A DNA stretch of 64,000 bases, taken from the NCBI GenBank assembly GCA_029261395.1, contig JAJDBJ010000005.1, positions 124,001 through 188,000 of the forward strand. The letters are read 5' to 3'. Made by a program: the position numbers and the translations under genes. Shown one piece after another: positions 3,846-7,193 of the stretch (positions are counted from its first letter, which is position 1; every line of letters starts with the position of its first letter). Source of the stretch: Nitrospinaceae bacterium. Lineage in GTDB: Bacteria > Nitrospinota > Nitrospinia > Nitrospinales > Nitrospinaceae. The notes beneath the pieces are model-generated. The model was not told the DNA's origin and ran no database searches. It was given only the letters and a program-made list of their open reading frames with translations.

Positions 3846-6800
3846 ATGAAAGTTACCTGCCCTAAATGTCTTGCTGCCTACAGGATCGATCTGCCTGATC
3901 CAGGTGAAGCCGGCATCGACGTCCAGTGTGGAAAATGTCTTACTATTTTCCTATTTAGTCCGGGCATCAAAAAACCTGATCCTTCAGGAATCCAAAGGGA
4001 CGCATCGGTAAACACTCGGGACGCTGAGTTACCAGAAAGCCACCTTTCTGAATCAATACTACCACCCCAAAGGGATGAGGAGCAAACAGATTCTGGCTCC
4101 AAAAAACAGGCTCCCGCCTCACTGGAACAAGACCAGGAGCCCCTCGAAACATTGGAGACGGAGCCCCTTTCGGAAGACTCCGAACCGGTTGAAATAGTCA
4201 TTGAAAACGAAACCCCTGACGACTCCCTGGAAGAGGGGTCTCTAGACGATATTTGGAATCAGGCGATGCAAGAAGGGGCTCGTACGAAAGCCAAACCCAA
4301 AGAAAAACCTCCCATCCAGCCTTCCCAGAAACCGGTTGCAGAATCCGTTGATGAGGAGCCAGTCAAAGAAACGCCTCCACCCCCCCCGGAGGTCAAATCA
4401 GAGCCTTTGTCTTCTTCGGAAGACCGACAACAGGAAGTCGACCTGATTACTGAGGATCACCCGGCGAAACAGGGAGAATCCGAAGATAACCCGCTGGTTG
4501 AAGAATCACCGTCACCCCTCGCCCCGATGAACCCTCAACAGGAAAAAACCCAGGAGGAAATTGACCTTGAGGAACAGGTCACTATCAGCGAAAACGAAGT
4601 CCTCCCCAGCTGGGAAGAAGCCTTCGCTCACCGGGCCGAAATTGAAGCGGGGTGGGACAAGGCCCAGAAACAAGACCGGATCCATGAAGAACAACAACTC
4701 GCTGAAGCTTTGAGCGAAAAAGCTTTACCCACTGAACCCACTTCAAAAGAAACATCCACCACACCCCCTCAGGAGAATAAACAGAGCTTCGACGATGAGG
4801 TTTTTGTCGAAGCAAAAGCCTCTCAAACAGCCTCGGAAGAGAAGGCTAAAACGCCTCAACCGAAACCTGAAGCGGATCCAAAACAGAATAAGGCTAAATC
4901 TCAACCGAAAAAAACCCAGGAGGAAGTTGACCTTGAGGAACAGGTCGCTATCAACGAAAACGAAGCCCTTCCCAGCTGGGAGGATGCCTTCGCTCAACAG
5001 GCCAAGCCAGAGCAGGAGGACCAACCCACCTGGACCGATGCCTTTGCCGACCAGTCAGAAGTTGAGACCACCTGGAAAGAACCTGATAAACAGGACGACA
5101 CCGGCGAAGCCGCTGTTGTCTCGGAAAATAAAGAGACCCCTTCTTTCGATCCAACCACAGCCGGCGGTGATTTGTCGAATGGCCTGAATATGGACATGAA
5201 ACAACTGGTTGAGCAGGCTTTTAAAGAAGAATCGGAACACTCTGAAGAAGTACCCGTATCTGGAGAAATTGAAGCCCCGGCCCTCGGCGAGGCCCCCCAG
5301 GAGCCAGAACTCACTTTGGAAGTGGAGGCCTCGCTGGAAACTCCTGCGGCCGGGCAAGCGGCGTCCGTGCCTCATCAGGACGAGGAGGGTATTGACCAAA
5401 CCATCGACCCTGACGCCAGCCACATCGATCCTCCCCCCACTCCAGAGATAGAACCCATTCCGGAATTGACTCTCGAATCTGCGGAGGAAGAGTCTGCACC
5501 GGAACCTGCGGAGACTGTTGCCCAGGAGGAAGCACCTGAAATCGAATTGGAGCTCGAAGAGGACGAACCCATTTGGGCTGATGCCTTTGCTTACCTATCG
5601 GAAACCGAAGACACCGGGGAATACCTTGAGGAGACAGAAGAAGAACCTGCACAGGAACCCGTGGAAACTGTTGCGCAAGAGGAAGAACCCGAAATCGAAC
5701 TGGAGCTCGAAGAGAACGAACCCATCCTGGAGTCTGCCGAAGCTCCAGCAAGCACAGAGACAGCGGTCACGGATCTCTTCGAGATAGAGCCGGAGCCGCA
5801 AGAGGAAGAACCCGAAATCGAACTGGAACTCGAAGAGAACGAACCCATTCTGGAGTCTACCGAAACTCCGGCAGGTACGGAGACAGCGGTCACGGGTCTC
5901 TTCGAAATAGAGCCGGAGCCGGAACTCACCATGGAGTCCCAGGAGGCCACTGTGCCTTCCGAAGAACAGCCCACTATGAGCCCTTCTCTTGAGGTCGAAG
6001 GTGAAGAGCTTTGGGCTGATCTGCTTCCCGAACACAAGGAGGATGATCCACTTGCCCACGAAGAAGCTCCACTGGTTTCTTCCAATGAGGAAGAGGAACC
6101 CCTCGGAGGAAACGATTTCTGGGATCAAGTGCTGGAAAAAGACTCGCAGGAACCCCAAACTGCCGAGACCGAGGCCAAACAACCTGTTTCATCCACGCCC
6201 GTGACTCAAAATACGGCTGAGCGGGAAGCCTTGACGGATGAGGAACTCTGGCAACAGGCTTTTCCAGAGGAAGAAGAACTTGAGCCTGGTGTCCCCAAAC
6301 ACTTTGACGATGAAGAAGAGAACTCTCCATCAAATGTCCCCCCTCTGGTCATTGGAGCCGACGTCAACCTGAACGAAGAGGACGAGTCGGAAGACTCTCT
6401 GAAATATGACGAAGCAGCCTACGCGGAGTACGATGACGATGACGAATTTGAATTCCAAAGGAAGAACCGGAAACTCGGACCCTTCACCGTTCCACACGGG
6501 AGGCGTGGTGATTTGGTCATCGGCGGAGTCATGGTGGTATTTCTTTTGATCGCCGGAAGCGTCTACTTCACACTGCAAACCTTTGCGCCCAGCGAATTGA
6601 CCGAAATTCAAACAGCCAAAACCGAAATCCCGGAAGGACTGAGTCCGCGCGAAGTACCTTTGGATGAGCTGGCCGAAGACCTGACGTCTCCTGAACCGGA
6701 AAAAACTCCCCCATTGGACACACCGGGAGATAAGGGGGAAGCCATCCTTTCGGACCCTGTCAAAATCCTGGAAGAGTCTCCGGAAGAGAAGGGAATTTTA

Positions 6801-7193
6801 AAGGACCTGGCCGAATCTCAAATACTGAACGACACCGGGAAAACCCAGACCGCCAAGATCGACCAATCCAATCTGCAGGGACTCACCGGACATTCCGTCA
6901 CCATGAGCTCTATCATGCCGGTCGCCTACAACCCCACGGATATCCGCGTGCTCAGCTTCAGTGTGGAGATTCAGTTGAGCAATGCCCAAAGCGCAAAAAT
7001 GGTGCGCGAATCCATGCCCGTTTACGAAGAAATCATGAACCAGACCGTGGAAGATCTCCTGCGCCGCAAATTCTATAATGACATTCTCTACGTCAAAGAA
7101 AAACTGCAGAAACGCCTGCAAACGGCCATGAACAAATCCATCAAAAATGGCCACGTCCGAACCGCCAAGTTCATCGACTTCGCCATTCAGTAA
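3846..7193 (+). CDS. Giant zinc-ribbon, acidic-repeat, single-pass protein with FliL-like C-terminus
   Basis: A 1115-residue protein of unusual layout. Residues 1-35 form an MJ0042-type zinc ribbon (Cys5, Cys8, Cys28, Cys31). About 850 residues of Glu/Pro-rich, certainly disordered sequence follow, with two nearly identical blocks around 235-260 and 355-385 and three copies of an EPEIELELEE-type block around 555-680. Scattered through it are short Trp-containing motifs of the form W-x-x-A-F (Trp137, 256, 378, 396, 577, 723, 759, 802). One membrane helix lies near 890-912. The last ~90 residues, with an LSFSVEIQL strand, an LLRRKFYNDI helix and the terminal FIDFAIQ, resemble the periplasmic FliL domain. 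The topology would put the zinc ribbon and acidic region in the cytoplasm. Function is unknown; a scaffold linked to a motor or envelope machine is inference. Confidence 0.85.
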   Translation: MKVTCPKCLAAYRIDLPDPGEAGIDVQCGKCLTIFLFSPGIKKPDPSGIQRDASVNTRDAELPESHLSESILPPQRDEEQTDSGSKKQAPASLEQDQEPLETLETEPLSEDSEPVEIVIENETPDDSLEEGSLDDIWNQAMQEGARTKAKPKEKPPIQPSQKPVAESVDEEPVKETPPPPPEVKSEPLSSSEDRQQEVDLITEDHPAKQGESEDNPLVEESPSPLAPMNPQQEKTQEEIDLEEQVTISENEVLPSWEEAFAHRAEIEAGWDKAQKQDRIHEEQQLAEALSEKALPTEPTSKETSTTPPQENKQSFDDEVFVEAKASQTASEEKAKTPQPKPEADPKQNKAKSQPKKTQEEVDLEEQVAINENEALPSWEDAFAQQAKPEQEDQPTWTDAFADQSEVETTWKEPDKQDDTGEAAVVSENKETPSFDPTTAGGDLSNGLNMDMKQLVEQAFKEESEHSEEVPVSGEIEAPALGEAPQEPELTLEVEASLETPAAGQAASVPHQDEEGIDQTIDPDASHIDPPPTPEIEPIPELTLESAEEESAPEPAETVAQEEAPEIELELEEDEPIWADAFAYLSETEDTGEYLEETEEEPAQEPVETVAQEEEPEIELELEENEPILESAEAPASTETAVTDLFEIEPEPQEEEPEIELELEENEPILESTETPAGTETAVTGLFEIEPEPELTMESQEATVPSEEQPTMSPSLEVEGEELWADLLPEHKEDDPLAHEEAPLVSSNEEEEPLGGNDFWDQVLEKDSQEPQTAETEAKQPVSSTPVTQNTAEREALTDEELWQQAFPEEEELEPGVPKHFDDEEENSPSNVPPLVIGADVNLNEEDESEDSLKYDEAAYAEYDDDDEFEFQRKNRKLGPFTVPHGRRGDLVIGGVMVVFLLIAGSVYFTLQTFAPSELTEIQTAKTEIPEGLSPREVPLDELAEDLTSPEPEKTPPLDTPGDKGEAILSDPVKILEESPEEKGILKDLAESQILNDTGKTQTAKIDQSNLQGLTGHSVTMSSIMPVAYNPTDIRVLSFSVEIQLSNAQSAKMVRESMPVYEEIMNQTVEDLLRRKFYNDILYVKEKLQKRLQTAMNKSIKNGHVRTAKFIDFAIQ

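Follow-up and report, generated by a model that had tools for sequence, protein, structure and literature searches.

The window analysed here, a stretch of 64,000 nucleotides from a Nitrospinaceae bacterium (contig JAJDBJ010000005.1 of assembly GCA_029261395.1, positions 124,001 to 188,000 of the forward strand), contains a long gene for a membrane protein with an extended acidic region and a C-terminal end resembling FliL. FliL surrounds the power units of the flagellar motor in other bacteria and aids the stators. The host phylum, Nitrospinota, is marine and little known.

Anatomy of the protein and its C-terminal domain

The gene occupies positions 3846–7193 of the window on the forward strand, as do all its features given below, and codes for 1115 residues from an ATG start (list of open reading frames and comparison of neighbourhoods). 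The reading frame is considered real because both ends of the protein are conserved in orthologues from many Nitrospinota genomes. The N-terminus is a zinc ribbon of the MJ0042 type (residues 1–35; 3846–3950) with the pattern C-P-x-C...C-G-x-C (here CPKC...CGKC), which matches Pfam PF13717 with 30.4 bits (cut-off 30.3) and NCBIfam TIGR02098 (MJ0042_CXXC) with 31.4 bits (cut-off 20.9). It is followed by a cytoplasmic linker of about 855 residues (residues 36–889; 3951–6512), acidic in composition (28% D/E, 6% K/R), probably disordered, and of low conservation outside short motifs. The sole hydrophobic segment, LVIGGVMVVFLLIAGSVYF (residues 890–908; 6513–6569), is the single transmembrane helix. 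The basic RKNRKLGPFTVPHGRRGD precedes it on the cytoplasmic side, and the N-terminus is predicted to lie inside, with 889 residues N-terminal to the helix. The periplasmic domain occupies residues 1017–1115 (6894–7190). The same succession of zinc ribbon, acidic region, one helix and C-terminal domain had been given in a preliminary description of the locus, and it is borne out by the Pfam and NCBIfam matches, the composition and the hydropathy.

The zinc ribbon is absent from three members of the family (L009, L012 and L014), all of one genus, which retain the rest of the protein. They begin inside the linker, and no ribbon was found in the upstream frames of any of them. Since these members do without it, the candidate role of the ribbon as an essential coupler is weakened and probably does not apply.

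The C-terminal domain is FliL-like, as the preliminary description had proposed. The AF2 model of the last 100 residues or so (pLDDT 83, pTM 0.71) has the order strand-strand-helix-helix-helix-strand. A Foldseek search of the PDB gave 10 matches at E ≤ 0.001, all of them to FliL (7sgn, 9hmf and 6ahq/6ahp), which is the only family at this threshold; the match to Helicobacter pylori FliL (7sgn) has an E-value of 1.5e-6. Stomatin-type SPFH domains rank below, a likeness already established for FliL (PMC6426602). The FliL model PF03748 matches 22 of 22 orthologue domains (best E 5.4e-6). On the window copy alone it scores 19.9 bits (E 0.001), under the gathering cut-off of 24.6 bits; in whole-genome searches many orthologues score 21–32 bits, several of them above the cut-off (e.g. 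32.4, 30.4 and 26.6). The reverse search, with a profile of the present family, finds the FliL of other Nitrospinota genomes with E-values down to 1.7e-7, and an hhalign comparison with canonical Nitrospinota FliL gives a probability of 94.6% (E 7e-8) over 81 columns, with coinciding ends. FliL structures also rank first for L098, a deep relative whose model was made without an alignment and has lower confidence. DUF3426, named beforehand as the unrelated fold that the domain might have instead, is rejected as its family because PF11906 has no match anywhere in the genome.

The window protein is a FliL-domain protein, not the FliL of this genome. Besides it, the genome has a canonical FliL (L001), which adjoins fliM and fliN, and a second FliL-domain protein, L002, near coaE. 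L002 (G000:C53:2622-2927; locus 1195–1818) has 207 residues, scores 46 bits to FliL and adjoins coaE outside the fli operon; similar matches are present in most Nitrospinota genomes. It shares with the window protein a FliL domain outside the fli operon, but is of ordinary length and has neither zinc ribbon nor acidic tail.

Switch-protein motifs in the linker and a proposed role

The linkers of the relatives contain as many as seven copies of SEEDLWAQAFAEQ, the motif found at the N-terminus of the rotor-switch protein FliN. The pattern [acidic]-x-W-x-x-[A/V/L]-[F/L/M] was observed 99 times in 40 linkers of the family, against about one in shuffled sequences, and the acidic helix [E/D][L/I]Dx[L/M][L/W]xx[L/I][L/I] 71 times, against 0.1; these counts take in tandem copies within one gene and inherited copies, and therefore show non-randomness, not independent events. 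The Pfam model FliN_N (PF16973, cut-off 24) scores 56.4 bits on L101, 33.8 on L098 and 27.9 on L099, and matches 17 of 32 family members at E ≤ 0.01; two shuffled linkers gave no match. When a profile of 28 copies of the W motif was compared with all PDB sequences, FliN (8umd chain D, DDLWADALNEQKATTTK) came first with an E-value of 0.0012 and a FliM-FliN fusion second (E 0.002), the next match having an E-value of 1.8. A single-sequence phmmer search of the PDB with one motif copy gave nothing useful. Some members (L094, L095 and L108) have neither FliN_N-type nor FliM_N-type motifs. In the linker of L103 (1–650) a unit of 31 residues, DLDGLMDDILTDAAPEEEPQVAETTAEQDDM, is repeated in tandem almost exactly, which we read as a sign of rapid copy-number change. 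Repeats of the form LDNMLDDLI may resemble the C-terminal helix of CheZ.

In ten genomes, 23 of the 25 matches to a DNA pattern for [DE][DE]-hydrophobic-W-x-x-A-F fall within this gene, and the remaining two have no protein in a matching reading frame. A match to the W-motif pattern in G013, near the small LSQ proteins described below, is intergenic and was set aside as due to chance.

The window copy itself has eight W motifs, all diverged or degenerate. They are LDDIWNQAMQE (4239–4280), the counterpart of ISQDELDKLWGAAVTEQ in L098; LPSWEEAFAH (4596–4637), a diverged FliN_N-like copy; LPSWEDAFAQ (4962–5003); QPTWTDAFADQ (5016–5057); EPIWADAFAY (5559–5600); EELWADLLPE (5997–6038); NDFWDQVLEK (6105–6146); and EELWQQAFPE (6234–6275), the copy nearest to EEDLWAQAFAEQ of the relatives. 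The only match of the genome to the DNA pattern lies at G000:C5:130240-130263 (window 6240–6263). FliN_N does not match the window copy even at a loose threshold, and its linker is putatively assigned through its homology to those of the relatives.

The motif was also sought across 77 genomes of the phylum, where FliN_N has 52 matches in 27 genomes. All but one (51) share contig and reading frame with this gene; the other, on a separate contig (G020:C186), may be another piece of it. None of the 52 is in FliN itself, and a direct scan of seven FliN proteins gave the C-terminal FliMN_C domain only. A segment with a W, EDISWEDAAADLEKQ, is present in the FliN of G071 and is missed by the FliN_N model; the member of the present family in that genome has no W motif. 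Judging from this distribution and from the direct scans, the FliN_N motif is missing from FliN in these bacteria and is present on the FliL-domain protein. FliMN_C (PF01052) is absent from all 32 family members.

The N-terminal pattern of FliM, or a close variant of it, is found in three deep relatives: L098 (GGISQSDLDQLF, EIISQDELDKLW and GVISQEELDGLF), L097 (GILSQEEMNKLL) and L099 (FAISQDALDGLF and EIINQDELDNLW). The segment LSQDELWNEAFADQ of L026 bridges the FliN-type and FliM-type motifs. The strict FliM_N motif has four matches, in L097 and L098, against 0.003 in shuffled sequences, with near matches in L099 and L026; FliN_N-type motifs are far more numerous in the family linkers. In the PDB, a profile of the FliM_N motif finds the FliM peptide 4iga with an E-value of 0.94, which is not significant. 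Among ten genomes, the DNA pattern for the FliM-type motif is found in FliM in all ten, in this family in two and in small tandem proteins in one, and is otherwise scattered. The small proteins (L112, L122 and L131; G013:C1:122803-124505) are three tandem products of about 125 residues, each starting with the FliM-type motif MELSQNDVDALFNQQ. The LSQxEIDALL motif of FliM is a binding site for CheY-P and stays disordered as long as it is free (PMC6700473, PMC9126983).

On balance, we think it probable that the window protein is a flagellar-motor accessory of Nitrospinota, related to FliL, with its FliL domain at the stator and its tail binding the partners of the FliN and FliM N-termini. By analogy with FliL, the periplasmic domain would sit at the MotAB stator, and the flexible, multivalent cytoplasmic tail would bind these partners. 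The FliM-type motifs (LSQxEIDxLL) would capture CheY-P, as FliM_N does, and the FliN-type motifs (DDLWAEALxEQ) would bind the motor partner of FliN_N, for example the C-ring; multivalency would be the reason for the repetition of the motifs. Such a tail would gather the switching signal near the stator, or link the stators to the C-ring. Since FliN has no motif copy of its own in these bacteria, the function of FliN_N may have shifted from the side of the rotor to that of the stator. Points that weigh against this reading are the position of the gene away from flagellar genes in all loci compared, the FliL score of the window copy below the cut-off and its lack of a FliN_N match, the members with neither motif, and the flagellated genomes that lack the protein. 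The preliminary description had suggested that a zinc ribbon on a disordered tether links some partner in the cytoplasm to a motor- or stator-like complex. Coupling as such gains support from the FliN_N and FliM_N motifs in the linkers of the relatives and from the way in which the protein follows flagella across genomes (see below); the emphasis on the ribbon probably does not survive the three members without it, and the passive tether does not survive the motif arrays. As far as can be predicted, the linker in the relatives is an array of switch-protein motifs and not a passive tether.

More specifically, the protein could receive the chemotaxis signal on the stator side, as a ring protein of the FliL type with a multivalent FliN_N/FliM_N tail that captures CheY-P or a C-ring partner, the function of FliN_N having moved to the stator side. 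We put this version forward tentatively, with more doubt than confidence. The main rival, which we regard as rather unlikely, is a stator tether that works without CheY, in which the tail attaches to the C-ring (the FliN/FliM/FliG surface) through its FliN_N-like motifs, ties the FliL-ringed stator units to the rotor and sets their recruitment or retention. Removal of the N-terminal region of FliN reduces motility and leaves assembly unaffected, so that FliN_N matters for motor function and not for export (PMC11673145), which suits such a tether, as do the numerical excess of FliN_N-type motifs and the retention of the protein in several flagellated members without detectable CheW; however, L097, L098 and L099 bear motifs that resemble the CheY-binding FliM_N type. 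The simplest reading is that the switching machinery is captured on the side of the stator.

Genomic setting and co-occurrence with flagella

The window gene stands alone, convergent with obgE on one side and divergent from a gene for a lytic transglycosylase on the other. In Nitrospinales its position is nearly fixed, convergent with obgE-rpmA-rplU and divergent from the lytic transglycosylase gene; in deeper families its neighbours are wholly different and never flagellar. No flagellar genes adjoin it in the window or in about 40 relative loci, which extends what the preliminary description had noted for the window. A small lipoprotein-like protein with two haem-type CxxCH motifs is encoded at 2283–2648 of the window (reverse strand) and conserved beside the lytic transglycosylase gene; it gave no confident family match. 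In many Nitrospinales a gene for a protein with FimV_N, Cds6_C and SPOR domains (L104, 12277–14472, and orthologues) is found a few genes away, and it was not found at this locus in the genus of the window.

Patterns from the window sequence were searched over 84,980 species, with a reach of close relatives, and the records matching the protein are nearly all labelled Nitrospina, Nitrospinaceae, Nitrospinia or Nitrospinota. The literature searched, covered in part, makes no mention of FliN_N by accession or of the architecture of zinc ribbon, linker and FliL domain. What appears to be new is the combination and the relocated motif; the family of the domain is a known one.

Co-occurrence of the homologues with flagellar genes had been proposed as a check. 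Among genomes at least 80% complete, and with flagellated defined as FliM or FlhA present, the full-length protein is found in 47 of 52 flagellated genomes and in none of the five non-flagellated ones (Fisher p = 6e-5; p = 0.02 at 90% completeness; the statistic ignores phylogeny). The non-flagellated genomes without the protein sit in several separate lineages (G015; G061; G070; G072/G073). G061 has no match for FliM, FlhA, MotA/ExbB or CheW; it has a 132-residue remnant of the FliL-like domain (L096, 1488–1883), which lacks a membrane helix and leaves no space for the remainder of the protein. Of the five flagellated genomes that lack the protein, two show signs of decay. G012, which is 98% complete, has in-frame stops in its flagellar genes (G012:C5:285795-293624), with a stop in FliL and a broken FlhA, suggesting recent loss of the flagellum, and G029 has FliM and is missing FlhA and FliL. 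The other three (G035, G036 and G076) show no obvious decay, and flagella therefore do not require this protein. The FliN_N motif correlated with chemotaxis (CheW) over all genomes (p = 0.001) but not at 90% completeness (p = 1), and the correlation was not used for that reason.

These data bear on a further rival, in which the protein belongs to a different polar or envelope machine, such as a TolQ/ExbB-type motor or one involving the nearby FimV-like protein, and the likeness of the motifs reflects common amphipathic acidic helices. It is consistent with a gene outside the flagellar operons, with MotA_ExbB proteins in 75 of the 77 genomes and with the FimV_N/SPOR-domain gene close by in many Nitrospinales. 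We nevertheless consider it improbable: the FliN_N match is sequence-specific and disappears on shuffling, and all five flagellum-less genomes that are at least 80% complete lack the full-length protein, including three in which MotA_ExbB proteins are retained (G015, G072 and G073). A zinc-ribbon membrane protein of the DUF3426 type or a gliding protein of the GltJ type, unrelated to FliL, can practically be dismissed: both have the MJ0042 ribbon in common with this protein and the NCBIfam GltJ model (NF033761) touches the ribbon of L097, but that match, in the zinc ribbon/N-terminal part only, reaches at most 28.9 bits against a cut-off of 450, so that GltJ is rejected as the family, PF11906 is absent from the genome, and the fold and profile comparisons of the FliL-like domain refute this reading.

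Significance and comparison with known systems

If its parts work as suggested for the motor accessory, the protein would be a new physical link between the stationary and the switching parts of the flagellar motor, and its architecture suggests a stator-side route of motor control. We know of no established partner of the N-terminal motif of FliN, although motility needs the motif. The presence of FliN and FliM motifs on a protein with a domain of the FliL type, in a phylum where FliN has no such motif, is a clue to that partner.

Like this protein, FliL has a single membrane pass and a C-terminal periplasmic stomatin-like fold, and their C-terminal endings match (KFxDFxIQ and YFTEFVIQ). The cytoplasmic part of FliL is 2–28 residues long (PMC10127578), against about 890 here, and the zinc ribbon and the motif arrays are found in this protein and not in FliL. 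FliL is encoded with fliM and fliN, in this genome as well, whereas the present gene is elsewhere. The linker repeats of the relatives align with DDLWADALNEQ of the Salmonella-type FliN. In FliN there is one copy on a rotor protein; here there are several on a membrane protein, which does not have the C-terminal domain of FliN. The LSQxEIDALL motif of FliM has putative counterparts in the deep relatives (ISQEELDGLF, ISQDELDKLW and LSQEEMNKLL), which are internal to the linker, in up to three copies and in part of the family, and may bind CheY. GltJ of the Myxococcus gliding machinery has a zinc ribbon, a long cytoplasmic linker, one membrane helix and a periplasmic part. The overall architecture of the present protein is like that of GltJ, with a periplasmic domain that is FliL-like.
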